Positions 5,980 through 52,752 of a stretch of DNA of 57,932 nucleotides are shown here, in pieces. The notes beneath the pieces were generated by a model, which saw nothing but the letters and a program-made list of their open reading frames with translations, was not told the DNA's origin and made no database searches. This DNA is from a virus. The stretch lies in IMG/VR virus record IMGVR_UViG_3300021961_010926, positions 1 to 57,932 of that record. The stretch is one strand, 5' to 3'. Each line of letters opens with the position of its first letter. Position 1 is the first letter of the stretch. The position numbers were made by a program, and so were the translations under genes.

Positions 5980-6215
5980 TATTCAACTCCGAAATGTTTT
6001 CTAATCTGTTTGATATGTTTCATTGACCGTAGATACTTTTCAGTATTGTGGCCATCACGAGTAATGCCCATTTGAATAGTTAGAATACATTCCTTCACAA
6101 TCAACTCGGCGAATCGTTCTACTTCAGTCTGACTTAATCGCCAGTCTCCCTCGGCATCATATGATAACATACCTCCAGCAGCCTGATTTGCAAGTTCTTT
6201 AACTCGATTATTCAT
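5979..6215 (-). CDS. FGVE-family small protein, copy 3
   Basis: 78 residues. MNNRVKELANQAAGGMLSYD, then VERFAELIVKECILTIQMGI and ending IRKHFGVE. The head is slightly diverged (NNRVKELA). Same one-base overlaps with its neighbours. Unknown function. Confidence 0.8.
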   Translation of the reverse strand: MNNRVKELANQAAGGMLSYDAEGDWRLSQTEVERFAELIVKECILTIQMGITRDGHNTEKYLRSMKHIKQIRKHFGVE

Positions 6216-6439
6216 TATTTTACACCAAAATGTTCTTTAATACCTCTCGCAATCTGCTCTTGACTGGGTTGGAACATCCATCGTGTTTCTTCTACAAACT
6301 TAGCGCATTCCTTCACAATCAGCTCGGCGAACTTTTCTAATTCAAACTCGGTGAATAACACACCATCATGCCTTCCCATAGCCATTACATTACGCACGGC
6401 ACCGACTTGCTTGGCAAGTTCTTTAATTCGTTCGTTCAT
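6215..6439 (-). CDS. FGVE-family small protein, copy 4
   Basis: 74 residues from the ATG at 6439 (MNERIKELAKQVGAVRNVMA), with LEKFAELIVKECAKFVEETR and ending IKEHFGVK. It starts inside the 3' end of the 49-residue gene at 6423-6572. An upstream in-frame extension is possible, but the family head begins at this ATG. Confidence 0.8.
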   Translation of the reverse strand: MNERIKELAKQVGAVRNVMAMGRHDGVLFTEFELEKFAELIVKECAKFVEETRWMFQPSQEQIARGIKEHFGVK

Positions 6440-6572
6440 CTTTATCACCATATAATGCAGCGTGTAGTCTCTCAATTCGTTCTGCTGCTATAATCAATAA
6501 CATCTGCAAAGCAATGTTATCTTGACTTTCACTGGCTTTTTTCAAGGTACTAATCAATTCTTGATTAGTCAT
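6423..6572 (-). CDS. 49-residue helical protein
   Basis: MTNQELISTLKKASESQDNI followed by ALQMLLIIAAERIERLHAAL and a charged end. It overlaps the stop of the upstream gene (6565) and the start of the downstream gene (6439), as in the rest of this operon. Short proteins starting MTNQELI...LR/KKASE and ending with a helical ERI-L segment recur beside FGVE-family genes in aquatic phages, from memory. Probably two helices. Function unknown. Confidence 0.65.
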   Translation of the reverse strand: MTNQELISTLKKASESQDNIALQMLLIIAAERIERLHAALYGDKDERTN

Positions 6573-6825
6573 TTTTTACCTCTACAAAAATACCCTCTTT
6601 GGTACTCGAAATACGAGTAATAGGCTTATTATCTACCTTATAGCCAATACTAACAAAGGGTCCACCTGAAGGATCAAAATAACCCAGATCAGTTTCGTCT
6701 AATTCTGTTTGCCCATCCTGAACACCAAACCTCATCCATTCGTCAGCACCTTCTTCCATATGGAATCGATAAGTGGTCTCAGAGACCTTCTCAAACCAGT
6801 ATTCTTTACCGTATCTATTCTTCAT
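6565..6825 (-). CDS. hypothetical protein
   Basis: 86 residues. Largely beta-strand with aromatic residues (GKEYWFEKVSETTYRFHMEE; DLGYFDPSGGPFVSIGYKV) and a terminal strand (TKEGIFVEVK). I do not recognise the family. It overlaps its upstream neighbour by 11 bases and its downstream neighbour by 8, so it belongs to the coupled small-gene operon. Confidence 0.7.
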   Translation of the reverse strand: MKNRYGKEYWFEKVSETTYRFHMEEGADEWMRFGVQDGQTELDETDLGYFDPSGGPFVSIGYKVDNKPITRISSTKEGIFVEVKND

Positions 6826-6955
6826 TAATTACCCCAGTACCACCACAGGCATAGCAGATGTACTCATTCCCAGATTCTTCTTCAAATCCGTGATTACCAA
6901 ACCCACCGCAACTGGGGCAGTATTCAAGCTCAGTCTTCTTACAGTATACGTTCAT
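6815..6955 (-). CDS. zinc-ribbon microprotein
   Basis: 46 residues. Two CxxCGG knuckles, CPSCGGFG at residues 13-20 and CYACGGTG at about 34-41, separated by an acidic loop, look like a DnaJ-type zinc finger or minimal zinc ribbon. It should fold around one zinc ion and bind nucleic acid or protein. It overlaps the next gene by 11 bases. Confidence 0.65.
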   Translation of the reverse strand: MNVYCKKTELEYCPSCGGFGNHGFEEESGNEYICYACGGTGVINEE

Positions 6956-7013
6956 AATAAACCACACAAGCTATTCCTATTAATAACATAATCAACATAT
7001 ATACTCCCATCAT
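6939..7013 (-). CDS. possible 24-residue membrane peptide
   Basis: Reads M-M-G-V-Y followed by a hydrophobic run (MLIMLLIGIACVVYY) and a short charged end. It overlaps the zinc-ribbon gene start. No clear ribosome binding site, so it could be chance, but two better-supported membrane peptides lie nearby (7043-7138, 7518-7601). Confidence 0.3.
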   Translation of the reverse strand: MMGVYMLIMLLIGIACVVYYERIL

Positions 7014-7042
7014 CGAGCAGAAATCAATCGTGAATGACTCTG

Positions 7043-7138
7043 TTAAAGGTTAAAGTCATGATAGTCACCCATGATTTGACCAATACAGTATCCTATTACA
7101 AAAGAAATCGATACTGCCATCAACAACAAAAATAACAT
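7043..7138 (-). CDS. 31-residue membrane peptide
   Basis: MLFLLLMAVSISFVIGYCIG forms one transmembrane helix and a short acidic tail follows (QIMGDYHDFNL). AGGA lies nine bases before the ATG, and the gene starts five bases after the stop of the 7143-7460 gene. Probably an inner-membrane microprotein. Function unknown. Confidence 0.5.
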   Translation of the reverse strand: MLFLLLMAVSISFVIGYCIGQIMGDYHDFNL

Positions 7139-11788: not shown

Positions 11789-12343
11789 ATGATCCATTAC
11801 TATTGTTTTCACAAAACTAGACAAATAATCGTTTCTGATCTTCCTGTAGAAAAGATCAGAAAGAAATATGGTCATGAGTACGAAATTCTTACTTCTGTAA
11901 AAGAAAAATCTTCTGTAGAAGTAATTAATGCTCGTACTGCTCGATCTTATTCCAAATATATTATAACTGAAGACTATTTAGTAATCAAGAAGAGAAATAC
12001 CGAAAAAGCTGTAGCTGCTGCAATTCTAGCTACTAAAGGTAAACCGAGAAGTGAGGAAGTAAAACGTAAAATATCTTTAAAGCTTAAAGGCCGGGGTAGA
12101 TTTACGGGTAAAAAACATAGACCAGAATCTAAACAAAAAACTTCTGAAGCTATGAAAGGCAATACTAATTCTAAAGATTTATATTGGGTTTACGATCCTA
12201 ATTCTGATTATGAAACTCGTATTAAAAATAGAGAGGACCTTCCCCCAGGCATGAAGTTTGGTAGAGATTATTATTCTACTGAAGCAATATCTATGTTTAA
12301 ATCTTCTACCAGGCCTCCCACCAATTCTCCCAAGGAAAAATAA
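11789..12343 (+). CDS. NUMOD3-type homing-endonuclease-like protein
   Basis: About 184 residues on the plus strand, against its neighbours. The start is assigned at the ATG at 11789; an upstream frame overlaps the minus-strand gene. Residues 55-125 hold NUMOD3-type repeats (KPRSEEVKRKISLKLKGRGR, then GKKHRPESKQKTSEAMKGN), each a helix-loop DNA-binding motif seen in Seg/Mob homing enzymes of T4. The N-terminal 50 residues are an alpha/beta module (VEKIRKKYGHEYEILTSVKE) without a GIY-YIG or HNH signature, so catalysis is uncertain. The C-terminus (YWVYDPNSDYETRIKNREDL) recalls T4-like homing enzymes. Its 3' end overlaps the convergent phosphoribosyltransferase gene by 38 bases. Confidence 0.7.
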   Translation: MIHYYCFHKTRQIIVSDLPVEKIRKKYGHEYEILTSVKEKSSVEVINARTARSYSKYIITEDYLVIKKRNTEKAVAAAILATKGKPRSEEVKRKISLKLKGRGRFTGKKHRPESKQKTSEAMKGNTNSKDLYWVYDPNSDYETRIKNREDLPPGMKFGRDYYSTEAISMFKSSTRPPTNSPKEK

Positions 12344-12743
12344 CCCAGCAAGGGTCTTCTAGCTTGTTAATTGTAAGCCCGGAAAAATCTGCCGTAAAAG
12401 TAGAAGACTCATTATCAATTAAATAGCAATACTTTACATTTAGTTTTGCATATCTAGAATCTAAATCTTGTTTTATTTTATGGGATGATGACCCGGTGTC
12501 GTTTATATCATCTATAAACAATATCTTAATGTGAGGAAATATTTGAGGGAGGATTATTCCTACCCCTTTATTAATAATATAACAAGGTATATCATAATAT
12601 TGACTGATGTAGTTCGCAGGAACGATGCCTCCTCTCGCTGGCCCTAAAACCAGATCCGGTCTCCAGTTTTTAAGAGTAAGTTGCCGAATAATATCAGAAG
12701 TATATTTTTTTACTTGTGTATCACTGATATACAATTTTTTCAT
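12306..12743 (-). CDS. type-I phosphoribosyltransferase
   Basis: 145 residues. LVLGPARGGIVPANYISQYY near residues 31-50 and the PRPP loop ILFIDDINDTGSSSHKI near 73-89 are the two signatures of PRTases; the two acidic residues in DDINDTGSS bind the ribose of PRPP. The C-terminal hood is short. The closest families are xanthine/hypoxanthine PRTases (base salvage) found in T4-like aquatic phages. The neighbouring gp46/gp47 and deazaguanine genes suggest purine metabolism, though the substrate base cannot be read from sequence. Confidence 0.85.
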   Translation of the reverse strand: MKKLYISDTQVKKYTSDIIRQLTLKNWRPDLVLGPARGGIVPANYISQYYDIPCYIINKGVGIILPQIFPHIKILFIDDINDTGSSSHKIKQDLDSRYAKLNVKYCYLIDNESSTFTADFSGLTINKLEDPCWVIFPWENWWEAW

Positions 12744-14870: not shown

Positions 14871-15931
14871 CAGTCATCGCCCTTATTCTGAGCTTCAATA
14901 TAAAGTGTTTTCATTAGAGTCTTCAAACGATTTTTATCACCCATAATATCAACACTGTCAATATATTGAGAAAGTAATGACATAGTATCTTCTACATCTA
15001 GATTATCATCCTGAAGTATGTCTGCTTCAAATTCTGACATATCTTCTATTATTTTTAACTCGATAGGACCATAATTATTAATCCTATCGATTAATTGATC
15101 AAACTTATAATAGTCTGTTTTATTTACTACCACCAGCTTCACGTGTTTATCTTTAAAATCATCTTCTGAATATCCCCAATCTTTAGTATCATCGTAATAT
15201 ACTTTTGTAAAGATAGTGAAGGGGTTTGGAATAAATTCTAGCTCAGCAGTATCAGTATTAAATAGGTGAAAACCTCGAGGATCATCATAATCTGACCATG
15301 TCATTTCATACGGATTGCCCAAATAGGTAATATTACCTTCTGTAGATCTATGATGAAAATGACCTGAGCAAACTAAATCAAATTTATCGAATACTTTACG
15401 ATCAAATCCTTCATGGTTATCATGGCCTTTATACATCTGAAACCCGGCAATCTCAAAATGACCAAACATAACTTTAGAGTTAGTTTCTTTTATTTTAGTC
15501 TGAAAGAGCTGGTAATTATCAGTACACACCCAAGGCATAAGTAATATTTGAGTATTACCTACTTTAATCTCAACTGGTATTGAGTGTGATATTACATTAT
15601 TATACTCTCTAAGAAGAAGATCAGGAGAATTAACATCATTAGTATTCTTATGGTAGGTATCGTGATTTCCTACAATCATAACAATACGAACATCACGTTT
15701 CTTAGCTTGATCAAAAAAATATTCTCTACAAGACTTAAGCGTGTTGTAGTTAATATATTTCCTTCTATCAAAACAGTCCCCTAGATGAAAGATAGTTTTA
15801 ATACCTTTTGCATCTATAGTTGGCCAGAAGCATTCTTCGTAAAACTTTTTAAAGAATGAATCGAAAGGAAGGGAATCTGATCTAGCTCCAAAATGAGTAT
15901 CTGTTACTAAAGCTACTAGCTTATCCTTCAT
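14870..15931 (-). CDS. 47: gp47 recombination endonuclease subunit (Mre11-like)
   Basis: About 353 residues. LVTDTHFGARSDS (D-x-H, residues 10-13), FHLGDCFDRR (GD-x-x-D), MIVGNHDTYH (GNHD), FGHFEIAGF and CSGHFHHRS are the five metallophosphoesterase motifs of Mre11/SbcD nucleases, all present. The protein forms the gp46-gp47 complex at DNA ends. The start is uncertain: ATG at 15931 (MKDKLVALVTDTHFG) fits the family best; ATG 15952 and TTG 15967 lie in frame upstream. It overlaps the end of queD by 11 bases. Confidence 0.93.
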   Translation of the reverse strand: MKDKLVALVTDTHFGARSDSLPFDSFFKKFYEECFWPTIDAKGIKTIFHLGDCFDRRKYINYNTLKSCREYFFDQAKKRDVRIVMIVGNHDTYHKNTNDVNSPDLLLREYNNVISHSIPVEIKVGNTQILLMPWVCTDNYQLFQTKIKETNSKVMFGHFEIAGFQMYKGHDNHEGFDRKVFDKFDLVCSGHFHHRSTEGNITYLGNPYEMTWSDYDDPRGFHLFNTDTAELEFIPNPFTIFTKVYYDDTKDWGYSEDDFKDKHVKLVVVNKTDYYKFDQLIDRINNYGPIELKIIEDMSEFEADILQDDNLDVEDTMSLLSQYIDSVDIMGDKNRLKTLMKTLYIEAQNKGDD

Positions 15932-16439
15932 AGATAGCGGAGTTTCCGGCATGTTCAAATACTTCAACAGATTTAACTCTTACTGTATGATTTAACAACT
16001 TACCATCGAAGAGTTTAATATGTAGGATTCTAGATAGCTCTTGATAGGCCATTTCGGCAAATCTCTCACAACCTACCCCAGGTACGATTCTAAGATCACA
16101 AACAGCACCACGTTTATAAGCAACTGAACTTTCGAGATCAAGTGCTGTCATATCTACTATATTAGATAGTTCGCGAAAGGTACTAATATGAGGATCGTCT
16201 TCTGCAATGAGTAGAGTATGATCGAACATATAGTCTAGCCAATTTTTGAAATCTTTAAGACCGCCGAAATCCATTACCCAGTTTCTTTCATCTAAACTTT
16301 CACACTCAAAAATAACTTTAACACCGATAGAATATCCATGCAACGTAGAGCAGTGTGAATGCTTAGCTCGCCACTGACGAAAACAGCACGACAGCCCACG
16401 ATCAGTTCCATATGTCTTTGTAGAATAAAATTTGCCCAT
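15921..16439 (-). CDS. queD: QueD-family 6-carboxytetrahydropterin synthase
   Basis: 172 residues. It converts dihydroneopterin triphosphate, the product of FolE, to 6-carboxytetrahydropterin, step 2 of 7-deazaguanine synthesis. Visible residues: SCCFRQWRAKHSHC (residues 17-30), STLHGYSIGV (31-40), ERNWVMDFGGLKDFKNWLD (near 52-71), FDHTLLIAEDD and the C-terminal VEVFEHAGNSA. The E-x-x-x-N/S-A end is typical. The zinc site departs from the usual H...HGH form: HGY replaces HGH, and Cys19 sits where the first histidine is expected, although His27 and His29 are nearby. I recall this as a recurrent phage/proteobacterial subfamily. Confidence 0.87.
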   Translation of the reverse strand: MGKFYSTKTYGTDRGLSCCFRQWRAKHSHCSTLHGYSIGVKVIFECESLDERNWVMDFGGLKDFKNWLDYMFDHTLLIAEDDPHISTFRELSNIVDMTALDLESSVAYKRGAVCDLRIVPGVGCERFAEMAYQELSRILHIKLFDGKLLNHTVRVKSVEVFEHAGNSAIYEG

Positions 16440-16445
16440 ATTATC

Positions 16446-16796
16446 TCACATTTTGCAATTAGTAAAGTCTGCAGTATACCAATTAGCTTGTGCTTCAGGT
16501 GATTTATCTTTCTGCCATTTTTTACTTACCGGGTCGTATTGGCCTACTCGAGAAGATATTTCTTTGATTACTTCGTTCATAACTTTATCGCCATTATAAC
16601 CGTACTTAGCAATCTCCCCATAAGCAAATACAATAATATCTGCCATAGCATCTATGCGACCTTCTGTATCGGGAGCTGCAATAAATTCTCCAAGCTCTTC
16701 GACGATCATAGAAACGAAACCATTACGATCAGGTGTTTGAAACGTAATCAGACGTTCATCAGACCAGTCTCTAATACGTTCAAAATTAGTTTTCAC
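16446..16796 (-). CDS. MazG-like nucleotide pyrophosphohydrolase
   Basis: 116 residues with a GTG start at 16796 just after GAGAGG. VSMIVEELGEFIAAPDTEGR then IDAMADIIVFAYGEIAKYGY give the E-E-x-x-E...D-x-x-x-D helical motif of all-alpha NTP pyrophosphohydrolases (MazG/HisE type). Such phage enzymes hydrolyse (d)NTPs or may act on ppGpp-like signals; for cyanophage MazG a preference for dGTP/dCTP has been reported. Beside a deazaguanine pathway, dGTP turnover would make sense but is inference. Shorter than E. coli MazG, with a single domain. Confidence 0.75.
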   Translation of the reverse strand: MKTNFERIRDWSDERLITFQTPDRNGFVSMIVEELGEFIAAPDTEGRIDAMADIIVFAYGEIAKYGYNGDKVMNEVIKEISSRVGQYDPVSKKWQKDKSPEAQANWYTADFTNCKM

Positions 16797-16962
16797 TCTT
16801 AACCTCTCGATCTTTAACTAAACTCATTTTTCTAGCCTGATCAGCACACAATTGAGCTGATACCACCGAACGCAGGTATTTACCTCTTTCGTGTTTATCT
16901 AGATATCTAGATGCGATAATTTTATTTTCCTTATTTAGTTTAAATGTATCGGTAGGTTTCAT
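16786..16962 (-). CDS. 58-residue basic hypothetical protein
   Basis: MKPTDTFKLNKENKIIASRY then LDKHERGKYLRSVVSAQLCA and DQARKMSLVKDREV. Strongly basic and helical. It starts with a TAATG overlap at the amidotransferase stop and ends 11 bases inside the MazG-like gene, so it is clearly part of the operon. Function unknown. Confidence 0.65.
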   Translation of the reverse strand: MKPTDTFKLNKENKIIASRYLDKHERGKYLRSVVSAQLCADQARKMSLVKDREVKSEN

Positions 16963-17561
16963 TAGAACTCCATGAAGTACGGGTTTTCAAAAGTGTTAAA
17001 TTCGTGTATTGATATTAATTTTCTTTGCGCTAGATCTATTTTAAAGACATGATTAGGAATAAGTGACTGACTATTCTCAAATTTAGTAGAAGAAAAATTC
17101 ATCTGACTATCATAATACATAGGAGATATTTCATTACGAAAAACATACAGCCCGTCGTTATTATATAAGATACAAGCAAATGTTCCATCTATTTCGGAAA
17201 GAGAATCCCATCCCTGTTCTTTAATTTTTTGTAGTAACCAAATAGTATCCCACTGACCGGGTACTAAGGTTTTCTGTTTTACTATACCATTATGCCAGAG
17301 ATAAGAACCTCTATACACAGCAGGATGTATATTACTTGCTTGAGTAGTAGGAGCCTGTGAGTGACAGACTGTAAAATACGATTTATCATTAAATAAAAAA
17401 TCAGGAGCTACGCCTTTACCTCTTACTAACTCTTGCATAGTAAACTCTTCTTCCCACAAAGTAAAGTATGCAAAAGAATAACTCAAAGATCCTCTGTACG
17501 AATTTAGCGTATAAAGATCTTTGAGTTTATTAGAAGAGAAAGATGCGATTATAGAGCACAT
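16962..17561 (-). CDS. class-II glutamine amidotransferase domain protein
   Basis: 199 residues. It begins M-C-S-I, so Cys2 becomes the N-terminal nucleophile after Met removal, as in Ntn-hydrolase amidotransferases. FTVCHSQAPTTQ near residue 75-86, YLWHNGIVKQ (HNG loop) and LSEIDGTFACILYNNDG near 120-138 are the glutamine-site motifs. It releases ammonia from glutamine. In archaea and phage 9g this domain is fused to QueC (Gat-QueC) for archaeosine-type amidination of preQ0. Here it is a free protein separated from queC only by a homing endonuclease gene. T4-like cyanophages also carry a lone class-II amidotransferase, so a link to deazaguanine is likely but not certain. Confidence 0.8.
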   Translation of the reverse strand: MCSIIASFSSNKLKDLYTLNSYRGSLSYSFAYFTLWEEEFTMQELVRGKGVAPDFLFNDKSYFTVCHSQAPTTQASNIHPAVYRGSYLWHNGIVKQKTLVPGQWDTIWLLQKIKEQGWDSLSEIDGTFACILYNNDGLYVFRNEISPMYYDSQMNFSSTKFENSQSLIPNHVFKIDLAQRKLISIHEFNTFENPYFMEF

Positions 17562-17563
17562 AG

Positions 17564-18151
17564 TTATTTTTTCTTACAGTTATCAAAATGCCATCTCTTA
17601 GCATTACCTATAGTAGTAGTATAGTTGCAATAAGGACAAGTTGCCATAAGTTTAGCAGGGTGTTTACCGGAACTAATAGCGTTTTTTGCTGCTATACTTT
17701 TTGCTGCCCGATCTTCTTTTGATCTAGTTTTACCTTTCCACCATTTATTAATACCTAACTTAATAAACGTTTCTCTAGCATCTGGTCTAGGTCTTCCTCT
17801 GTTAGCTTGAGAGATTTTTTGTTTCGATTCTTCGGAATGATAAAATACTCTTTCTAAATAATATGTGTAGCCTCCGTGACCCCCTATCGCTAAATTATAG
17901 CATGCTGGATCCTTAACAACATCTTCTGTAATAATTTTTTGCTCTTCCAAAATTAATTCTTTTTCTGTACTATGTATGGAAATAATTTTTTTATTAAAAT
18001 TTTGTTTACCGTATTTTTTAATAGCGGCTTTTAACCTCTTACCTGAACCAAAATATAAATCTTGCTCAGGGTCCTTTCCATCGAAAGCTCTTCTACCGTA
18101 ATAATAATGATTATTTAAAACGTTAGTTATTTTATAAATGTAGTAAACCAT
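17564..18151 (-). CDS. GIY-YIG homing endonuclease
   Basis: About 195 residues from the ATG at 18151, after AGGA. VYYIYKITNVLNNHYYYGRR is the GIY-YIG catalytic block, with the arginine and later E (LILEEQKIITED) of this nuclease superfamily. NUMOD3-type repeats follow (EESKQKISQANRGRPRPD; GKTRSKEDRAAKSI), then a C-terminal zinc finger (CPYCNYTTTIGNAKRWHFDN). It sits between queC and the amidotransferase gene, which may be its insertion site. The upstream leader forms a hairpin that buries the ribosome binding site. Confidence 0.85.
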   Translation of the reverse strand: MVYYIYKITNVLNNHYYYGRRAFDGKDPEQDLYFGSGKRLKAAIKKYGKQNFNKKIISIHSTEKELILEEQKIITEDVVKDPACYNLAIGGHGGYTYYLERVFYHSEESKQKISQANRGRPRPDARETFIKLGINKWWKGKTRSKEDRAAKSIAAKNAISSGKHPAKLMATCPYCNYTTTIGNAKRWHFDNCKKK

Positions 18152-18158
18152 TTTTTTT

Positions 18159-18191
18159 CCTAATAAACGTATATAATATATAGCTATTAGG
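18159..18191 (-). promoter_or_regulatory. hairpin covering the homing endonuclease ribosome site
   Basis: CCTAATA (18159-18165 on plus) pairs with TATTAGG (18185-18191). On the RNA the 3' arm contains UUAUUAGG, whose AGG belongs to the Shine-Dalgarno site before the ATG at 18151. Transcripts reading through from queC would hide the site. T4 I-TevI is known to be controlled by such a hairpin, opened when transcription starts inside it from a late promoter. Confidence 0.55.
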
Positions 18192-18201
18192 ATCTTTAGA
18201 T

Positions 18202-18936
18202 TTACCATGTAATTTTTATATTATACGGGGCGGGGTCTTTAAGTTTTAATTTTAAGAAAGCATTGATTCTTTCAGCACACGAGGGACACTTTCCGCATGA
18301 ATAGCCGTTTTTTCCGGGGTTATAACACGTTATCGTGTTAGCTAAAAGGTCGGTATTACCATCAAGCTCCTGTAGAATTTTTATTTCTTCATATTTACTT
18401 AAACTACTAAAAGGTGCAATAAGCTTGATTTTTATTATTCTATTTTCAGACAACAAGTCATTAACCTTACCAATCCATCGCGCTGTAGTGTCGTGATAAT
18501 TATATTCATCCGTTGATTGAAGACCGCAAAGAATAGTATCTACATTTTTAGTCTCTGCATATGCAGCTGCAATCGACATAAGTATCATATTGCGATTAGG
18601 GACATACGTTGGAGGACGAGGGTCCCCTAGAACATCTCTAATAGTAGGCATCTCAATGTTTTTATCTACATTAGCTGAGAAACCTTGAGATATATCTCCT
18701 AAGAAAGAAGCATCTACTACTTTATGACAGACCCCTAACATGCTTGTTGATAGCTTGGCGCATTCTATTTCAAATGCCTGTTTCTGACCGTAAAAAAAAG
18801 TAAGAGCCGAAACATTTTCAGCCCCATACTTTTCTACAGCCAGTCGCATGGTAATAGTAGAATCTAAACCACCGGAAAGAATAACTACACAACCCTTGGT
18901 ATCGGGTAGTAAATTAAGAGCTTCACTTAAGATCAT
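18202..18936 (-). CDS. queC: QueC 7-cyano-7-deazaguanine synthase
   Basis: 244 residues. The PP-loop SGGLDST is at residues 21-27. A four-cysteine zinc site, TCYNP...SCGKCPSC, lies near residues 205-223. YVPNRNMILMSIAAAYAE and GLQSTDEYNYHDT are standard QueC blocks. The enzyme converts 7-carboxy-7-deazaguanine with ATP and ammonia to preQ0 (step 4). Size and motifs match cellular QueC. It starts 14 bases inside the preceding small gene. Confidence 0.95.
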   Translation of the reverse strand: MILSEALNLLPDTKGCVVILSGGLDSTITMRLAVEKYGAENVSALTFFYGQKQAFEIECAKLSTSMLGVCHKVVDASFLGDISQGFSANVDKNIEMPTIRDVLGDPRPPTYVPNRNMILMSIAAAYAETKNVDTILCGLQSTDEYNYHDTTARWIGKVNDLLSENRIIKIKLIAPFSSLSKYEEIKILQELDGNTDLLANTITCYNPGKNGYSCGKCPSCAERINAFLKLKLKDPAPYNIKITW

Positions 18937-19135
18937 CTTTTACTCTCATCAACTCTTTTTGAATTCTATGAATATACACACAAGAATCCATAAGCTCTTC
19001 CTTGAGGTGTTGTATCCAGTCTTCCAATGATAGATCATTACGCTCAGTGGTAACACCGTATTTGGTAAATCCTTTTTGTGATCTGCTTACAAACTCTTCA
19101 CATAGTTCATTTACATTCTTATCAGGTGAGTTCAT
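18923..19135 (-). CDS. small conserved phage protein (MazG-like helix pattern)
   Basis: About 70 residues from the ATG at 19135, which overlaps the queF stop (TAATG) and has GAGG upstream. SRSQKGFTKYGVTTERNDLS then LEDWIQHLKEELMDSCVYIH is a pattern common in small phage proteins, where KYG-T-ER-DLS and HLKEEL-D recur. The EE-x-x-D helix resembles one half of an all-alpha NTP pyrophosphatase, but the domain is too short to assign activity. Embedded between queF and queC. Confidence 0.7.
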   Translation of the reverse strand: MNSPDKNVNELCEEFVSRSQKGFTKYGVTTERNDLSLEDWIQHLKEELMDSCVYIHRIQKELMRVKDDLK

Positions 19136-20052
19136 TATTGCCTCGGTGTCTTTTGACATGGACGAGTAACGTTAAGAATATTCGATTGACGGTAAGCTAA
19201 TTCATATGAAGAAGCTCGTATAGGGTTGATATCAATGCCCCCTCTCCGAGTATAGAGGCACATCACTAATAGCTCCTCGGGTTGTATTAGATCCCACAAA
19301 CGCTTATAAATGCATTCGGTAATCTCTTCATGAAAGTGGTTCTCTTTTCGCATCGATACAATATACTTAAGTAAAGATTCCGGTGTAACCGCCTTATCCC
19401 CTTTAATATGGATATAGACATCTCCCCAATCGGGCTGATTAGTTACACGACAGTTCGATCGAAGTGAGTGTGAACGCCATCTTTCATACCGTCCAATGGA
19501 TGGTACTACTTCAAGAATATCAGCTGATTCATTATAATCTGTAAATACCATTTTTTCAATATTACAATACTTCTCAAGCGAGATGAAATCGCCTGTGACT
19601 GGTTTAAACGTATCTACATCACCTATATGGATAGTTACATTAACTTCACCGCCTACTACATCTGATAAATCCATAGAGATTTTATCTTCTATGATCCATA
19701 AATCATCTAATGTGGTCATAATCTTATCCATATTATATGAATTAAGATATAACTTGACAGATTTAGATTCTACGATATTAGGTGTATTAGATTGGTATTG
19801 AAATTTTAACCAACCGGATACTGGAAATCCATTCTTAAGAAGAGTGGAAAATTCATACGCGTTCCAGGCATCACCACCTACGAAAGGCAGATTATCATCT
19901 TCGATACCGTAAGCAGTTCTATTAAGAGAACGAGGAACACCGACTAAGAGACTGCTGTCTACTTTATCGGGCGTAACGTATGGTTTTACTACAGATCCAT
20001 CTCCAGCTTTACCAAGATGGACCGAAGCTAGTTCGTTAATTTTATCGACCAT
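19135..20052 (-). CDS. queF: QueF NADPH-dependent preQ0 reductase
   Basis: 305 residues, the long bimodular form. ESKSVKLYLNS (95-105) is the QueF signature. Cys201 in SNCRVTNQPDW with Asp208 seven residues later matches the catalytic Cys194/Asp201 pair known for the bimodular type. ENHFHEE (238-243) and YTRRGGIDINP near the end are further family blocks. It reduces the nitrile of preQ0 to the aminomethyl group of preQ1 with two NADPH. Its presence shows the phage goes beyond preQ0. It overlaps the start of the kinase gene by 11 bases. Confidence 0.95.
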   Translation of the reverse strand: MVDKINELASVHLGKAGDGSVVKPYVTPDKVDSSLLVGVPRSLNRTAYGIEDDNLPFVGGDAWNAYEFSTLLKNGFPVSGWLKFQYQSNTPNIVESKSVKLYLNSYNMDKIMTTLDDLWIIEDKISMDLSDVVGGEVNVTIHIGDVDTFKPVTGDFISLEKYCNIEKMVFTDYNESADILEVVPSIGRYERWRSHSLRSNCRVTNQPDWGDVYIHIKGDKAVTPESLLKYIVSMRKENHFHEEITECIYKRLWDLIQPEELLVMCLYTRRGGIDINPIRASSYELAYRQSNILNVTRPCQKTPRQ

Positions 20053-20575
20053 TAATCACCTCAAGTACTTGATTGACTCTTTCTCTTACGGAGCCGGATA
20101 CATAATGCACCGGTATGTTATGTTCTTCAATTACATCTATGAAGGATCTATTGATCTGATTCCGAAATGATGTATTGGTAGAACGAACACCATCTGAAAC
20201 TATATCAAACTCTGGTTTAATAAAGAACAGATAATCATAATAAGAAATAAGCTTATGAAACACATTATAGGCTATTTCCATAGTTTCTTCTTTTATGTTA
20301 CCGCTCTGTCTTAGCCATTTCGTATACACTAAACCATCTAATACAGTTCGATCAGTAATCATATTCTTATTTAAAAATATATTATAAACATGTTTCATCA
20401 TGATTAACTCTTGAGTATGGTCATTACCTTGCTCGTTAATTGGTAGACCGATTTTTTTTACCCATCGAGTTACTTCGTCACACACTACGTAATCTTGAAA
20501 TTCCTTTTCTGATCTTAGAGCGTTAAGCAGAGTTGTCTTACCTACTGACTGCGACCCCGTTATTCCAATACGCAT
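20042..20575 (-). CDS. NadR/AAA_28-like nucleoside or nucleotide kinase
   Basis: 177 residues. MRIGITGSQSVGKTTLLNAL carries Walker A GSQSVGKT at residues 7-14. VVCDEVTRWV supplies the acidic residue, and MITDRTVLDGLVYTKWL (TDR-x-x-xD) matches the NadR-type kinase pattern. The family includes ribosylnicotinamide kinases and phage nucleotide kinases. It lies between queF and the formyltransferase and overlaps both, so a role in handling deazaguanine or purine nucleotides, or NAD(P) supply for QueF, is an attractive inference. Confidence 0.75.
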   Translation of the reverse strand: MRIGITGSQSVGKTTLLNALRSEKEFQDYVVCDEVTRWVKKIGLPINEQGNDHTQELIMMKHVYNIFLNKNMITDRTVLDGLVYTKWLRQSGNIKEETMEIAYNVFHKLISYYDYLFFIKPEFDIVSDGVRSTNTSFRNQINRSFIDVIEEHNIPVHYVSGSVRERVNQVLEVINGR

Positions 20576-21107
20576 TAGTTCTCATCCTCATGAATTGTGT
20601 CCACGATTGTAATGACAATTCCTTTAAAGTTCCATATACTTCATCTAAGTTTTTTGCCAGATTCTTTTGGTGCTTCTTAGTATAAATCTCACCAGCATCT
20701 ACTTCAGGTATTACTCTATGAACTACTGATCCCAGAGTATTATATTTACCCTCCCATGTTCTTACTTGCGGGTCCTTACCTTTGAGTTCTGGGTAGATAT
20801 CAATAGCTGCAGGGTGGCCATTATAAATCTCATACATTTCACAAACGTCTTGTGGTACAAGTCGAAGATATCCATGCAGGGTAATTATAGTATCACAGGG
20901 TCGCCAAAGGGTCTGTTCTCGTAAGAAGGTCATCAGCATATCGTGACTGCCATACTGAATCGGCGCACCAATCATTCTAAGCTTAGGGTTAATTTTTAAT
21001 GTCGTCTCGTAATTATTAGTAGCAATTAAATCCGGTACTTTGTTTAAAGATTGGGATAACTGAACAATCTCAGAACCGGTCTGACTAAAAAATGCAATCC
21101 ATTTCAC
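20538..21107 (-). CDS. PurN-like formyltransferase (DpdN candidate)
   Basis: 189 residues with a GTG start at 21107 (GTGA overlap with the DpdA-like stop). MKWIAFFSQTGSEIVQLSQS matches the GAR-transformylase N-terminus. TIITLHGYLRLVP, then YNGHPAAIDIYPELKGKDPQ with Asn96 and His98, and EVDAGEI with Asp137 reproduce the N-H-D catalytic triad of PurN/Fmt enzymes using 10-formyltetrahydrofolate. Full-length phage purine synthesis genes are not present here. Overlap with dpdA and closeness to queF point instead to N-formylation of preQ1, as proposed for the phage enzyme DpdN (7-deazaguanine literature, from memory). True purine GAR transformylase activity is the alternative. Confidence 0.75.
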   Translation of the reverse strand: MKWIAFFSQTGSEIVQLSQSLNKVPDLIATNNYETTLKINPKLRMIGAPIQYGSHDMLMTFLREQTLWRPCDTIITLHGYLRLVPQDVCEMYEIYNGHPAAIDIYPELKGKDPQVRTWEGKYNTLGSVVHRVIPEVDAGEIYTKKHQKNLAKNLDEVYGTLKELSLQSWTQFMRMRTNAYWNNGVAVSR

Positions 21108-21913
21108 TCATAATCTCCTGTTACAATTTGTCTAAACACATCAATATTCAAGTCAATAATATCAGAAGAAATATTATCAGGTTGAGCATTAATAAGGTTA
21201 ACCAGCTTGGTAGATTCTTTAGTCATCAGACCGGTAGATTCATACATTATATTTTTTAGACCATGTACTATAGGGTTAGATGTATCGACTGATTCTATCC
21301 AATCAAACCCGTTACGATAAAATAGGAATTCAATAGGAAGAGAACAACCTAACAGATGATGTGGTTTACTTTGATTTATAATACCTTCTTCCAACATCCT
21401 ACTCAGTACATGAACTCGGCCTAGCGCAAATGATACCCACTTATTAGGGTGTGGAAATACTTTTTGATAATAAGAATAATCAAAAGAAATAGCCAACTTA
21501 TCTACGTTGATTATTTCATCTAGATACCGATAACAGCCAACAATTTCTTCATATGATCTACCCTGAGCCACTCCAATACTTTTACATTGCTGTGGAATAC
21601 TATCTGCATAAGTAGTCTTCCATTTAACCGCATTAGTAATAGTAGAGATACTATCTTCTAACGCATCTGGAAGAATATATTCGGTTGGAACTAGTTTCTT
21701 AACCCACTCTGCATACTTATTCATATCGAATGCAGTTCCTAATTCGAATATCGAGTTATCTAAAATAACCTCTCGACCCATTTTAAGAGAATCAACAAAG
21801 AACTCATGATATTGTGGTATTTCATCTAGAAGGTGTACTAAACAATAATCATAGTCATTATACACTCTCGAATGTTCGAGCATCGATAGAGGGGATTCAT
21901 GTGAAATTTTCAT
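21104..21913 (-). CDS. dpdA: DpdA-like DNA guanine transglycosylase
   Basis: 269 residues with a TIM-barrel TGT-like order of motifs: ILDNSIFELG (50-59, D52) in place of DSGGFQ, YILPDALED (79-87), GVAQG (114-118), HHLLGCSLPIEF (185-196) and SVDTSNP (208-214), where Asp210 aligns with the TGT nucleophile. TGTs exchange guanine for a 7-deazaguanine base; DpdA proteins do so in DNA. The short length suits the compact phage DpdA subfamilies rather than the large bacterial form. It shares ATGA overlaps with both neighbours. With FolE-QueDEC-QueF it completes a DNA hypermodification pathway. tRNA modification is the alternative but is less likely given the motif differences. Confidence 0.8.
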   Translation of the reverse strand: MKISHESPLSMLEHSRVYNDYDYCLVHLLDEIPQYHEFFVDSLKMGREVILDNSIFELGTAFDMNKYAEWVKKLVPTEYILPDALEDSISTITNAVKWKTTYADSIPQQCKSIGVAQGRSYEEIVGCYRYLDEIINVDKLAISFDYSYYQKVFPHPNKWVSFALGRVHVLSRMLEEGIINQSKPHHLLGCSLPIEFLFYRNGFDWIESVDTSNPIVHGLKNIMYESTGLMTKESTKLVNLINAQPDNISSDIIDLNIDVFRQIVTGDYE

Positions 21914-22347
21914 TGTAATTGCTCAATTATCTCTGTTTTTACTGGGACCCACAACAATAAATCACCAAATTTATTAGGTTTTTTCCTAGATAAATTTGCC
22001 CGTATATAATCTATCATATCATTAACTTTATAACGGTAGATGGATTTTGTTTCAGTATCTACACCATAAATTTCTTTTGCTGCAGATGAATATATCCACC
22101 CAACATTTTCACGTCTTTTATTATAAAGTTCAACACCAAGGTAACCTTTAAAATAATTGGACTTTACATCTACCGGTACACCATTAATAATAAAGTCAAT
22201 CTTTAAATTAACTTGACTGTTAGGATCTACTTTGTGTTCGTAATTAAGCTTATTATGCTCACAGTAAATACGAACAATCTCTTCACCCTCGTCCCCTTTG
22301 GCTCCGTTAGTACCGTATCTACCTTCTGAATTATTATACCAGGTCAT
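21910..22347 (-). CDS. PD-(D/E)XK nuclease-like protein
   Basis: 145 residues. GDEGEEIVRIYCEHNKLNYE (E helix), then KIDFIINGVPVDVKSNYFKG give the E...D...D-x-K pattern of the restriction-endonuclease fold. The rest (YNKRRENVGWIYSSA; KSIYRYKVNDMIDYIR) is compatible with that alpha/beta core. ATGA overlap with dpdA and spacing of one base from folE tie it to the modification operon. It could be a nuclease that spares the modified phage DNA and cuts the host's, or a recombination nuclease. No substrate can be inferred. Confidence 0.65.
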   Translation of the reverse strand: MTWYNNSEGRYGTNGAKGDEGEEIVRIYCEHNKLNYEHKVDPNSQVNLKIDFIINGVPVDVKSNYFKGYLGVELYNKRRENVGWIYSSAAKEIYGVDTETKSIYRYKVNDMIDYIRANLSRKKPNKFGDLLLWVPVKTEIIEQLQ

Positions 22348-22348
22348 A

Positions 22349-23026
22349 TTAGCGTTTAATTAAAGACATAAACTCAGCACGGGCTTCAGGTTCAGTTCTA
22401 AAACACCCACCCAGCTTAGCAGTGTAAGTATAAGAGGAATGATCTTCCACCCCTCTCGACTTTACACAATAATGAACCCCTTCAATAACAACTGCAATAT
22501 CCTCAGTACCAAGAATAAATGCAAGAGAATGATATACTTGCTCAGCAATGCGTTCTTGGACCTGCGGTCGTCGAGCAAAATATTCAACGATACGATTAAG
22601 CTTAGACAAACCGAGAACTTTATCTTTAGGAATATATGCTATATGGGCTTTACCGTCAATAGTTACAAAATGATGTTCGCAGTTAGACATTAATGTAATG
22701 TCTTTTTCAATTACCATCTCATCGTAACCCATCTTATTCTGAATTACAGTTACCTTAGGAAAATTATCTGGTTTCAACCCCCAGAAAATTTCATTTACAT
22801 ACATCTTTGCAACACGTTTAGGGGTATCAATAAGAGAATCATCTTGAAGATCTAAACCCAAAGTTTCCATAATAGATGTAAAATATTTTTCGATCTTTTT
22901 AATCTTCCATTCTTCTTTCTTAAGAAGAGGATCAATCAGCGTAGGGGTATGAACCCCTTTCGATTTTAAATACTCTTCCACTTTATAACCGAGCTCGGCA
23001 TCGGTTTTACCTTTTTGAAACGACAT
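22349..23026 (-). CDS. folE: GTP cyclohydrolase I
   Basis: 225 residues, TAAGGAG before the ATG. SNCEHHFVTIDGKAHIAYIP then KDKVLGLSKLNRIVEYFARR, and GVHYCVKSRGVED, are the canonical blocks. Zinc ligands Cys116, His119 and Cys187 are present. It converts GTP to dihydroneopterin triphosphate, the entry step for 7-deazaguanine (and folate). The first ~40 residues are a variable extension. Located two bases from the nuclease-like gene and 18 bases after queE. Confidence 0.97.
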   Translation of the reverse strand: MSFQKGKTDAELGYKVEEYLKSKGVHTPTLIDPLLKKEEWKIKKIEKYFTSIMETLGLDLQDDSLIDTPKRVAKMYVNEIFWGLKPDNFPKVTVIQNKMGYDEMVIEKDITLMSNCEHHFVTIDGKAHIAYIPKDKVLGLSKLNRIVEYFARRPQVQERIAEQVYHSLAFILGTEDIAVVIEGVHYCVKSRGVEDHSSYTYTAKLGGCFRTEPEARAEFMSLIKR

Positions 23027-23044
23027 ACTTTACTCCTTAGTTAA

Positions 23045-23881
23045 TTAAGTTCCCCACTCGTTTTTGAAAAGAGGAACCTGCAATCTATCTGAATATCTCC
23101 ATCCTCTCTTCATAGCCATCTCAGCTACTGTTCGATTATTGAGATGATATACTGATTCCACACCACCTACGGGCATCAAGTATACAGGACCTTTAAACCC
23201 AGCTTGCCTGTATAGTTTAACAGCTTTCTCGGCATCCTCTGCATCTTCTTTTGTTGCTACCACAAACTTAAGATAAGTATACCCTACCTCTTCATAAGAT
23301 GCTACGATATCCGGTAGAATAGCATCTTCCCATTTTTCACCTGAGACCGGTAGTTTAGGTGATACGGAAAATGTGATACCATCCCATTTAAAACCGTAAA
23401 GTGAACGCTCAAGTTCTTCAGTAATTACTTGTGTTCCGTTAGTTTCAAAAGTGACATCTGTCAACGTCATCATCTTTTCGTTTTCTAACAAAGCCGGGTA
23501 AGCTCGTTGCCACCCGAGAAGTGGTTCCCCACCAGTTATAACTAAATGCTCTCCATCCCATACACCATGGGGAAGTAATTGTATAATCTTTTCTACGATA
23601 GTTTCAACCGACAGCATCGGTGAAAGATGTTTAAACCTTACGTCCCAAGATGCGTAAGAATCACATCCTGTAGAGACTAAAGGTAACTCTTCGTATTTTT
23701 TGAAAGACTTTGCATCGGTAGCGATTATATCACGCTCAGTAGAAACTTCACCTATAGGCATACCGAAGCCTGAGCAAGTAAAGTTACAACCGAAGGTACG
23801 GAGAAACACAGACGGTACGCCCATGTACCGCCCTTCACCCTGAATAGAGTAAAACAGTTCTGCTATTTTTATCTTGGACAT
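23045..23881 (-). CDS. queE: QueE 7-carboxy-7-deazaguanine synthase (radical SAM)
   Basis: 278 residues. IAELFYSIQGEGRYMGVPSV then FLRTFGCNFTC is typical of QueE. ITGGEPLLGWQ and FETNGTQ are the SAM-binding blocks. The cluster cysteines appear as Cys32 and Cys36, with the third at Cys73 in STGCDSYASWD after an insert of about 36 residues, instead of the common CxxxCxxC. The enzyme rearranges 6-carboxytetrahydropterin to 7-carboxy-7-deazaguanine (step 3). It is the first gene of the modification operon, downstream of a sigma70 promoter and a preQ1-riboswitch-like leader. Confidence 0.93.
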   Translation of the reverse strand: MSKIKIAELFYSIQGEGRYMGVPSVFLRTFGCNFTCSGFGMPIGEVSTERDIIATDAKSFKKYEELPLVSTGCDSYASWDVRFKHLSPMLSVETIVEKIIQLLPHGVWDGEHLVITGGEPLLGWQRAYPALLENEKMMTLTDVTFETNGTQVITEELERSLYGFKWDGITFSVSPKLPVSGEKWEDAILPDIVASYEEVGYTYLKFVVATKEDAEDAEKAVKLYRQAGFKGPVYLMPVGGVESVYHLNNRTVAEMAMKRGWRYSDRLQVPLFKNEWGT

Positions 23882-23886
23882 TTATG

Positions 23887-23921
23887 CTCCTAGTTTTGTT
23901 AATAGGTGGAAGGGCACCTAT
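23887..23921 (-). promoter_or_regulatory. preQ1-I riboswitch-like RNA element before queE
   Basis: The RNA reads AUAGG-(10-nt loop)-CCUAU, then UAACAAAACUAGGAG, whose AGGAG is the queE ribosome site. A 20-nt hairpin with a 5-bp stem and 10-nt loop, followed by an A-rich tail, copies the class-I preQ1 aptamer geometry; the tail is nearly identical to that of the Thermoanaerobacter tengcongensis aptamer (UUAACAAAACAAGG). CCU in the loop can pair with AGG, forming an H-type pseudoknot that hides the ribosome site. In this register the base that should read preQ1 (C15) is A, so binding may differ or be absent. Confidence 0.4.
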
Positions 23922-23930
23922 CACCTGCAC

Positions 23931-23959
23931 ATTATAAATTATAACAATCAGAAAATCCA
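23931..23959 (-). promoter_or_regulatory. sigma70-type promoter of the deazaguanine operon
   Basis: -35 TGGATT (23954-23959), 17-bp spacer, -10 TATAAT (23931-23936). Same core as early-promoter copies 7 and 9. The -35 touches the stop of the gp55 gene. It places queE and the genes to about 11.4 kb under early control. Confidence 0.75.
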
Positions 23960-45933: not shown

Positions 45934-46704
45934 TTATTTACGCCAAACTTCTAAACCATGATACTTATTTAAAATGTCCGGGGGTAGGATAAAATCCCTA
46001 GCCTTGAATTCTACTCGCTTTCTTACATCATGTAGCTTTATACCGATTTCCTGATCATACTCATCCCAACTTGCTTCTACATTGTTAAAATCATGCTGAA
46101 AATAAGGCTCATCAATAAAATTATACAGGGCTTTTAACATTTGCTCAGGTTGTTTAGCTAGTTGCTCATACTCTAAGATAAAAAGTAAATTTTTTTCTAG
46201 ACCGGTTATTGCTTGCTTAATACCCACATAAGGAAAACCTACTACACCGGCTTCTGAAAAAAGGGATTCTGCTCTGGAATAAACCGAACCTGAAAGACCC
46301 CCGGTTACTGTATTAGTTGAGAAAGGATTGCGTCTGTGCGCTAGTTCAAAACTATCCAAGACCCAGTTAATATCTCTAACACATACAATAAATTTAGATT
46401 TAGGGTAAAGATCTTTTATAACACCCGTTAAATATGTCCAAGCGCGATTAGTATTAAAAATAATCGGCTTATCAACATCTTGATAGAAACCGTCAAACAA
46501 CCCGGCAACTATATTTTTTCTTCGCTGTACAGGAACCTCTGCTTTCGACCCGGGGCTATCTTGTGTAGCCTCAATTACCCCTTTTACTAAATTAGCTAAA
46601 GGGTCGGTGATAGAGGAATGAAAGCGGGGGTTCTGTCTTAGTATTGAGGTAAGAAGGGTTGACCCTGATCGCGGTAAGCCAGTTATAAAATGATATTGTT
46701 TCAT
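45934..46704 (-). CDS. sulfotransferase
   Basis: 256 residues. FITGLPRSGSTLLTSILRQN is the PAPS-binding 5'-phosphosulfate loop (G-L-P-R-S-G-S-T-x-L at residues 8-17). KFIVCVRDINWVLDSFELAH supplies the 3'-phosphate motif (R-D...S), and LLFILEYEQLAKQPEQMLKA is typical of Stf0/type-1 families. It transfers sulfate from PAPS to a hydroxyl or amine acceptor, probably a carbohydrate. The APS-kinase-like gene at 7594-8028 could provide PAPS. ATGA overlap with the TPR gene. Confidence 0.85.
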   Translation of the reverse strand: MKQYHFITGLPRSGSTLLTSILRQNPRFHSSITDPLANLVKGVIEATQDSPGSKAEVPVQRRKNIVAGLFDGFYQDVDKPIIFNTNRAWTYLTGVIKDLYPKSKFIVCVRDINWVLDSFELAHRRNPFSTNTVTGGLSGSVYSRAESLFSEAGVVGFPYVGIKQAITGLEKNLLFILEYEQLAKQPEQMLKALYNFIDEPYFQHDFNNVEASWDEYDQEIGIKLHDVRKRVEFKARDFILPPDILNKYHGLEVWRK

Positions 46705-48056
46705 AATTTACTCATTAATTTAAGTACTTCTTGTTTAACATTATTAAGCGGTGTGTGCCAATCTCTCACTTTAGTTTGTTTGTGAACTTGAAAATTGTCA
46801 CCATACCAAGGGGTAGTGGTACCTTTATGCGAAGTGGACCAGATATAGTATTCAGCAATAGGTACAACAACAAAGCATGTCTTTCCTATCGCTCCTGCTG
46901 CATGTACTAAACTGGTGCAGCTGCTTACAATACAATCCATTTGATCAATAAAATCTAAAGTATCCTCCCAAGTATCAATTCTACTGCCTAAGTCAATACA
47001 ACCTGGGTGACCATCTTCTTTATCAATGTAATAAACCTCTGCACCCTCAGGTATATAGCTGAGCAACAACTCAAGAGGTATCTTGCGGTATTCATCTTGG
47101 GAAAAATATGGATTACCGGAACATTTAATACCTATCTTAAATTTGTCACTATTGATTTTATTTTTAGGATTCCTTACCGGGATAAGATAAGGTTTTCGCC
47201 AAAGCTTATCCTCAGTTAAATTAAGATACCCAGGCAAGCTCATCATAGGAGTCCATAGCTGTCTTCTATCTATAGAGTATGTTTCAGTTATTACTTCATA
47301 TCCGTTGCGACGAAACAGACTAACTGTATCCTCTCTATACTTTGACCAAGTAGAATATAATATTGGTCTCATACCTAGATCTTTAATATGATCAAAGAAT
47401 CTTATGTTAATTATCTCGTCACCAATACCTCCCTCACCATCAACGTAAATAATTCTGCCTGGTTGAATTGTACCGGACCATTTAGTCATACCTAAAGCAT
47501 CTTCAAATCTTCCGTTCTTAGGTTTAATAGAGCCCATGAACGCCAGTACACCTTCAGCGATCCTTCCTTCTCTTAATACCTTTCCGCTTAAAGCATTCTT
47601 CATATCATCAGCTTTTTCAGGGTGTTTTTCAGCCAAAGAAAGTAACAAATCTTCGGAAGTTTTTCTATCACCCATTAAAGCTATATTAAATGCTCTTTGT
47701 GTTTGAGTTTCAAAATCATCTGGGGTTAATTTTAAATTAAGATCGATATAGAAAAGAGCTTTTTCCGGCTGATTCAATGCATTATAGGCTTTATATAAAT
47801 TAGCGCGAGCAATGTAAAGTTGATCGGCGTTTTCAGCTCTAGAGTAAGCAGCCTCTGCACATTTCAAGTAAAGAGGTCTATGCTCTGCTTTTAGGGAAAG
47901 ATATCCAAGTGTATCAAAATCTTCTACTGAATCTGCACGCTTAAAGTAATGTTCAAGCATTTCAAAAACGATTTTTCGTTTTTCATTACCAAGCAAATCC
48001 ATTACAACAGTAGTTAAATCTTGGATCTTAAATTCTTTATTCTTTAATGACGACAA
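46701..48056 (-). CDS. TPR-glycosyltransferase (GT9/GT41-like) fusion
   Basis: 451 residues; TTG start at 48056, with an in-frame ATG 18 codons later, so the start is uncertain. Residues 20-170 are tetratricopeptide-like helices (QLYIARANLYKAYNALNQPE, KALFYIDLNLKLTPDDFETQ). The C-terminal half is GT-B-like: RIIYVDGEGGIGDEIINIRF, FKIGIKCSGNPYFSQDEYRK and CIVSSCTSLVHAAGAIGKTC then FVVVPI. The S-C-T-S-x-x-H-x-A-x-A block is the usual donor site. TPR plus GT recalls O-GlcNAc-transferase-type architecture used on protein acceptors. Confidence 0.75.
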   Translation of the reverse strand: MSSLKNKEFKIQDLTTVVMDLLGNEKRKIVFEMLEHYFKRADSVEDFDTLGYLSLKAEHRPLYLKCAEAAYSRAENADQLYIARANLYKAYNALNQPEKALFYIDLNLKLTPDDFETQTQRAFNIALMGDRKTSEDLLLSLAEKHPEKADDMKNALSGKVLREGRIAEGVLAFMGSIKPKNGRFEDALGMTKWSGTIQPGRIIYVDGEGGIGDEIINIRFFDHIKDLGMRPILYSTWSKYREDTVSLFRRNGYEVITETYSIDRRQLWTPMMSLPGYLNLTEDKLWRKPYLIPVRNPKNKINSDKFKIGIKCSGNPYFSQDEYRKIPLELLLSYIPEGAEVYYIDKEDGHPGCIDLGSRIDTWEDTLDFIDQMDCIVSSCTSLVHAAGAIGKTCFVVVPIAEYYIWSTSHKGTTTPWYGDNFQVHKQTKVRDWHTPLNNVKQEVLKLMSKL

Positions 48057-48582: not shown

Positions 48583-48612
48583 AATTTTATCCAAGTAAAA
48601 ATAACAAATTAA

Positions 48613-49987: not shown

Positions 49988-49988
49988 T

Positions 49989-51344: not shown

Positions 51345-51346
51345 AT

Positions 51347-52750: not shown

Positions 52751-52752
52751 AA

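Follow-up and report, generated by a model that had tools for sequence, protein, structure and literature searches.

The virus record IMGVR_UViG_3300021961_010926, analysed here over its whole length of 57.9 kb (hereafter the window), carries an operon predicted to make and use a 7-deazaguanine base. The most probable product, to which we assign a rough probability of 0.75, is 7-(formylaminomethyl)-7-deazaguanine (formyl-dPreQ1) replacing deoxyguanosine (dG) by way of preQ1 synthesis, a DpdA3-type exchange, and formylation. FolE, QueD, QueE, QueC, and QueF would build preQ1 from GTP, a DpdA3-type transglycosylase would exchange guanine for preQ1, and a PurN-like enzyme would formylate the aminomethyl group, presumably from 10-formyl-tetrahydrofolate. 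Phage DNA with formyl-dPreQ1 in place of much or all of its dG would resist host nucleases that read G. In our reading, the operon is a probable further example of the DpdA3/DpdN system. Related phages already provide precedents for this kind of product, which we consider likely here; what the finding adds are the partner genes, through which it can be tested directly how these phages achieve complete replacement.

The window belongs to a T4-like marine myovirus: a gp23 capsid protein, a T4-type portal, and a tail sheath are present, and its UvsW is approximately 53-54% identical to those of Pelagibacter, Methylophilales, and Prochlorococcus phages. The operon runs on the minus strand from 23881 to 15921, in the order QueE to QueD given below; the last line is a gene outside it. 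Genes overlap in 8 of 13 neighbouring pairs between QueE and gp47, and from FolE to the glutamine amidotransferase (GATase)-like gene every neighbour overlaps or lies no more than 2 bases away. The whole operon also occurs on a 158.9-kb contig with 99-100% protein identity, and thus it is no assembly artefact of the window record alone. A 76.8-kb contig holds its first part, ending inside the formyltransferase.

23045-23881, minus: QueE, 7-carboxy-7-deazaguanine synthase (radical S-adenosylmethionine), by PHROG and cluster cysteines
22349-23026, minus: FolE, GTP cyclohydrolase I, by TIGR00063
21910-22347, minus: small protein, PD-(D/E)XK-like by eye, with hidden Markov model (HMM) relatives in distant DpdA3 operons
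21104-21913, minus: DpdA (DpdA3-type) guanine transglycosylase of tRNA-guanine transglycosylase (TGT) fold, by sequence relatives and structure model
20538-21107, minus: PurN-like formyltransferase (DpdN-type), by PF00551
20042-20575, minus: P-loop nucleoside/nucleotide kinase of the NadR/deoxynucleoside kinase/thymidylate kinase fold, a recurrent DpdA neighbour, by Pfam and model
19135-20052, minus: QueF, preQ0 reductase of the two-domain type, by Pfam QueF_N and QueF
18923-19159, minus: conserved 78-aa protein between QueF and QueC
18202-18936, minus: QueC, preQ0 synthase, by Pfam and TIGR00364
17564-18208, minus: SegE-type GIY-YIG homing endonuclease between QueC and the GATase-like gene
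16962-17561, minus: class II GATase-like (Ntn) protein near QueC, by a weak Pfam match
16446-16796, minus: MazG/PRA-PH-type nucleotide pyrophosphohydrolase
15921-16439, minus: QueD, 6-carboxytetrahydropterin synthase, overlapping gp47, by Pfam PTPS and PHROG
12306-12743, minus: phosphoribosyltransferase, candidate for salvage of exchanged-out guanine

Family searches recover all five pathway genes where the first-pass annotation had placed them, and the enzymes appear intact, as it had claimed. FolE (TIGR00063, 242.8 bits against a cut-off of 181.6) and QueC (Pfam E = 1e-50; TIGR00364, 153.7 bits against 150.3) exceed curated cut-offs. QueE (PHROG QueE-like, E = 5e-53), QueD (Pfam PTPS E = 3e-18; PHROG QueD-like E = 9e-39), and QueF (Pfam QueF_N E = 5e-29 and QueF E = 1e-20) score clearly, yet remain below their respective equivalog cut-offs, which for QueF means 232 bits against 293 for TIGR03138. 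The three cluster cysteines of QueE (C32, C36, and C73) are all present; 36 residues separate the second from the third, a similar insertion being seen in cyanophage BUCT-ZZ01 and in a close relative. QueF retains C201, D208, and E242 together with an ESKSVKLY stretch, which we take to represent the catalytic Cys and Asp and the NADPH motif; by these residues it is of the nitrile-reductase type and not QueF-L.

Neither Pfam nor NCBIfam recognises the 21104-21913 protein. Its AlphaFold model is a confident TGT barrel (pLDDT 96) whose best Foldseek matches are bacterial TGTs (E = 1e-7). Among solved structures it aligns with a Z score of 18.1 over 236 residues (root-mean-square deviation 3.2), and the best matches are tRNA-guanine transglycosylases, several of them with bound preQ1 or preQ0. 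The first-pass annotation had named a best match to tRNA TGT as an outcome that would overturn the assignment, but that test was ill chosen, because DpdA itself is a TGT-fold family and the protein groups with phage DpdA by sequence. Its relatives comprise 31 of 50,697 phage records, led by Flavobacterium phage vB_FspM_immuto_2-6A (54.5% identity over 91% of the length) and followed by the Campylobacter CP220 group at 43-44%. Residues D52, D83, R166, H186, G189, and D210 are invariant and Q117 nearly so among 51 sequences; their roles (catalytic Asp, base binding) are presumably those of TGT. D210 and KPHHLLG align with FDC and KPRYLMG of Escherichia coli TGT, albeit weakly (E = 0.0074, probability 5%). 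The TGT zinc motif C-x-C-x-x-C is, by eye, absent from the window protein; since it is also absent from all ten DpdA1 controls, its absence is uninformative. A profile comparison of DpdA3 with the DpdA of phage 9g, using one sequence as template, gave no significant match (E = 0.076). Isoelectric point and net charge were considered as a sign of DNA binding and proved uninformative, as they do not separate DpdA3 (group medians of pI 5.0-5.8) from the ten DpdA1 controls (5.5-8.9, with negative net charge in 8).

Related loci were collected with one formyltransferase query and four DpdA queries. They form four groups, namely window-type (96 loci, 48 after dereplication), phiST-type (4 and 4), Ahp1-type (80 and 51, with L149 lacking a usable open reading frame, ORF), and BSTP12/StAshley-like (69 and 46). 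For two of the DpdA queries the 80 best relatives were taken, out of totals of at least 562 and at least 491, and the counts therefore refer to the closer relatives of each query; one query also brought in many weak matches (E values as poor as 4e-4) that are perhaps not DpdA3. Dereplication was at 90% identity, and loci with three predicted genes on both sides are referred to as full-context.

The TGT-fold DpdA-like protein and the PurN-like formyltransferase do share one operon, with overlapping genes, as first described. Of the 17 IMG/VR loci found through the formyltransferase, 16 have DpdA as the gene immediately before it; the remaining one, L019, stops short of that position. The dereplicated full-context window-type DpdA loci contain the formyltransferase in 33 of 34 cases and QueF in all 34. 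All 10 aligned formyltransferase sequences keep N96, H98, and D137, and we take this N-x-H plus D to be the formyltransferase triad. Several points weigh against formyl-dPreQ1 as the product. The PF00551 match is marginal (E = 2e-6, 28.0 bits against a cut-off of 26.1), TIGR00639 scores 26.6 bits, below its cut-off of 150, and the acceptor (preQ1 or dPreQ1) is suggested by synteny, that is, by the position of the gene between DpdA and QueF. Moreover, QueC together with the nearby GATase-like protein is reminiscent of a split Gat-QueC, which would suggest archaeosine (dG+) instead. PurN chains align with the formyltransferase at E = 0.011 and above, and its relatives among the 50,697 phage records are four immuto records only.

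Archaeosine, with the GATase-like protein and QueC acting as a split Gat-QueC, is in our judgement a very unlikely end product. Gat-QueC makes dG+ in phage 9g (PMC6884629). The GATase-like gene is directly adjacent to QueC in 16 of the 19 loci that have it, and a similar pair is found in KVP40-type Vibrio phages; in the window the two are separate genes, parted by the homing endonuclease, which carries a NUMOD3 motif. The protein begins with Met-Cys, its Pfam match is below the cut-off, and it was found in 19 of the 96 window-type loci, many of which are short. It could simply supply ammonia to QueC. Archaeosine would also leave QueF and the formyltransferase without purpose, yet both are present in nearly all full-context window-type loci.

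The closest cultivated counterpart of the formyl-dPreQ1 operon is found in phage immuto (MW353175.1), which shares FolE, QueE, QueD, QueC, QueF, a PRA-PH-type hydrolase, and a phosphoribosyltransferase with the window. The DpdA proteins are 54.5% identical, the formyltransferases 37.5%, and the kinases 34%. The core order of DpdA, formyltransferase, kinase, and QueF is the same, apart from a small ORF after DpdA in immuto, with QueE and FolE upstream; the annotated order is FolE, DUF4494, nucleoside triphosphate (NTP) pyrophosphohydrolase, small ORF, DpdA, small ORF, formyltransferase, kinase, and QueF, and its DpdA is annotated as "DNA guanine transglycosylase". Immuto, whose host is Flavobacterium sp. 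LMO8, belongs to a different phage genus and differs in that QueC lies approximately 15 kb before DpdA, QueD precedes QueE, no GATase-like gene is among the matches listed, and the small ORF after QueF is unlike that of the window. Cui et al. 2023 reportedly named DpdA3 and DpdN, a dPreQ1 formyltransferase, and described formyl-dPreQ1, matching the TGT-fold enzyme and formyltransferase seen here. Gene content and the immuto order support the chemistry proposed in the first-pass annotation (GTP to preQ1, formylation of the amine, replacement of guanine); insertion into DNA had been assumed, and the neighbourhood evidence makes a route through free nucleotides a serious rival.

More distant systems differ further. 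Campylobacter phage CP220 (Firehammervirus) resembles the window in its DpdA (approximately 44%), in an AAA_28 kinase as the next gene, and in an HD-domain protein upstream; it has no formyltransferase match, no QueF is annotated in the 16.7 kb read, and the end product is another, its DNA containing dADG (PMC8306585). The DpdA1 systems of phages 9g and CAjan share FolE, QueD, QueE, QueC, and a TGT-like DpdA with the window, but have no small P-loop protein nearby in 13 of 13 controls.

The genes that accompany DpdA3 are the less expected part of the finding. The first-pass annotation had proposed a mixed operon with a kinase and a nuclease, and the kinase is indeed real and recurrent; the would-be nuclease at 21910-22347 is PD-(D/E)XK-like only by eye, with no Pfam match and no significant PHROG, and recurs in distant relatives (HMM relatives in L124, L131, and L166). 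Using HMMs seeded from DpdA-adjacent proteins, a kinase is found within three genes of DpdA in 34/34 window-type, 3/4 phiST-type, 26/43 Ahp1-type, and 8/36 BSTP12/StAshley-like full-context dereplicated loci; because the loci are related, these counts are not independent. A seed-free small P-loop pattern, applied without dereplication, gives 71/82, 2/4, 37/73, and 11/59 for the same groups within three genes, and 2/71, 0/3, 7/70, and 4/39 at a distance of four to eight genes. The same pattern search finds no small P-loop protein within three genes in any of 13 DpdA1 controls, which were drawn from 5 of 7 loci (two near-duplicates left out) and 9 of 236 records, L280 having too few genes to count. 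Farther out, two control records encode kinases at a distance of five genes, one of the NadR type in L116 and an adenylate kinase in L280 (Quesadilla).

A stronger argument than the counts is that the kinases beside DpdA3 come from different families. AAA_28/NadR kinases are found in the window (E = 8e-16) and CP220 (E = 2e-12), AAA_18 kinases in phiST and MA9V-3, and the T4-type deoxynucleoside monophosphate (dNMP) kinase PF21448 in Ahp1 (E = 2e-17), D479 (E = 6e-9), and, weakly, Bakedbeans (E = 8e-4). The DpdA neighbour in BSTP12 is a P-loop protein without a match over the cut-off, called "putative thymidylate kinase" in sister records, and StAshley and RHph_I1_18 have no adjacent kinase in their annotation. 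PF21448 was not found in the 158.9-kb relative of the window, a record that may be incomplete. The model of the window kinase resembles nucleoside kinases (NadR, Z score 18.9; deoxynucleoside kinase, approximately 16) as well as thymidylate kinase (approximately 16), and its substrate may accordingly be either a nucleoside or a monophosphate.

Locus L097 lacks a recognisable formyltransferase, and its kinase (6123-7079), located between DpdA and QueF, has a GNAT-like C-terminal extension with a match below the cut-off (E = 0.0023, 18.3 bits against 23.6). A scan for a second kinase-GNAT fusion returned only the L097 contig itself, leaving a single case. If real, the extension could possibly point to an acetylated base (N-acetyl-preQ1), with the kinase physically tied to the amine-modifying step. 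In the 3488 predicted proteins of the four groups, an HMM search called no protein that joins any two of DpdA3, the kinases, MazG, DCD, DUF3310, the formyltransferase, and the pathway enzymes. Outside that set, RHph_I1_18 (L106:5001-6269) encodes an annotated DpdA3-DUF3310 protein whose DUF3310 part matches at E = 6e-6. A separate DUF3310 gene occurs in 15 of the 43 Ahp1-type loci with full context, in many cases as the gene immediately following DpdA.

Hydrolases also accompany DpdA3. MazG-type and dUTPase-type enzymes convert triphosphates to monophosphates. In the 19 GATase loci, the slot between the GATase-like gene and QueD is occupied by a MazG-type protein in 5 and by a DCD/dUTPase-fold protein in 14, never by both; since L003/L026, L006/L034, and L010/L031 are each one contig, these correspond to 3 and 13 contigs. 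The replacement protein matches Pfam DCD at E = 2e-16 and dUTPase at E = 5e-5, and may also have a deaminase role. Of the 43 full-context Ahp1-type loci, 42 have a DCD-family gene, as a rule two positions beyond DpdA. A gene similar to the window phosphoribosyltransferase is found in the immuto cluster and in 9 of 17 formyltransferase loci.

These partners bear on how formyl-dPreQ1 would enter the genome. In the T4 hydroxymethyl-dCTP pathway (gp56, gp42, and gp1), the canonical deoxynucleoside triphosphate is removed, the base is replaced at the monophosphate level before replication, and the product is re-phosphorylated by the phage's own monophosphate kinase. A hydrolase, a base changer, and a kinase beside DpdA3 resemble this arrangement and, by analogy, suggest exchange on free nucleotides, which would yield the same product by another route and to which we give somewhat less than an even chance. 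A MazG- or dUTPase-like hydrolase would convert dGTP to dGMP, and DpdA3 would then put preQ1 in place of the guanine of dGMP or deoxyguanosine. The modified nucleotide, phosphorylated by the adjacent kinase, would be inserted by the polymerase, giving complete replacement of G; the phosphoribosyltransferase would salvage the released guanine. The gene linkage expected of such a pool-level route is found in three of the four groups and is weak in the fourth. Kinases lie within three genes of DpdA in those three groups and, by the P-loop pattern, in none of the DpdA1 controls; they come from differing families, triphosphate hydrolases of two unrelated families alternate in one slot, and the kinase model matches both nucleoside and nucleotide kinases. 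The 2-aminoadenine genomes follow a like logic with a triphosphate hydrolase and a base-changing enzyme: in the S-2L Z-cluster the canonical nucleotide is likewise removed and the base changed at the monophosphate level, and MazZ makes (d)GMP from (d)GTP (PMC8342488). PMC10653934 notes that unorthodox phage bases, including preQ1, need adapted kinase structures. The base-changing enzymes of T4 and S-2L are unrelated to DpdA3, for which a nucleotide-level step is our hypothesis.

Exchange on DNA after replication, as for DpdA1, with the kinase and hydrolases serving general nucleotide supply, seems to us about an even bet. The DpdA model has the fold of a polynucleotide-acting enzyme, and we know of no TGT-fold enzyme that acts on free nucleotides, which counts against the pool-level route. 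Crippen et al. 2019 reportedly looked for dADG phosphates in Firehammervirus-infected (Campylobacter) cells and found none, and Cui et al. 2023 are said to have concluded that insertion is post-replicative; both results would favour exchange on DNA and stand against exchange on nucleotides. Phage 9g DpdA and Gat-QueC modify plasmid DNA in E. coli (PMC6884629), but such modified DNA is, on its own, also compatible with exchange in the pool. Kinases and hydrolases of these kinds are frequent in phages as suppliers of ordinary nucleotides, the BSTP12/StAshley-like group is poor in kinases by either count and has the hydrolase in only 7 of 36 loci, and the DUF3310 gene of Ahp1-type loci stands mostly in place of the kinase. 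The nucleotide-level case is further weakened by the relatedness of the loci and by the fact that 16 of the 96 window-type loci were reached through the formyltransferase, itself a kinase neighbour; net charge does not set DpdA3 apart from DpdA1. Post-replicative exchange, for its part, leaves unexplained why kinases of several families and swapping hydrolases accompany DpdA3 in three groups and not the DpdA1 controls. The fuller proposal, in which DpdA3 exchanges the base on free deoxynucleotides and forms a pool-level pathway for full G replacement with the hydrolase and kinase, amine acylation possibly varying as in L097, we put forward as tentative and rather less probable than its negation. 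No proposal of nucleotide-level exchange by DpdA was found in the literature covered, to which the full texts of Crippen et al. 2019 and of Cui et al. 2023 did not belong.

The 78-aa protein between QueF and QueC was considered as a minimal all-alpha NTP pyrophosphohydrolase and rejected: a profile search of solved structures gave chance matches only, and its PHROG matches are to families of unknown function. Nor could it be aligned with the small ORF that follows QueF in immuto. Elsewhere in the window, seven genes of like size (447-467 aa) lie at approximately 46701-57490; the one examined (53412-54788) is built of RCC1 repeats and may encode an adhesin or a tail fibre.

Where a phage exchanges one base throughout its genome, it has to be asked how the exchange reaches every position. 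Should DpdA3 act on nucleotides, post-replicative insertion of 7-deazaguanines would be the wrong model for the DpdA3 subfamily, the TGT fold would gain a new activity, and a small set of genes would provide a route for feeding modified dGTP analogues into the DNA of a laboratory strain. Should it act otherwise, DpdA3 would still have partners in want of an explanation, the recurrent kinase and the alternating hydrolases, which can be tested directly in cultivated phages such as immuto and phiST.

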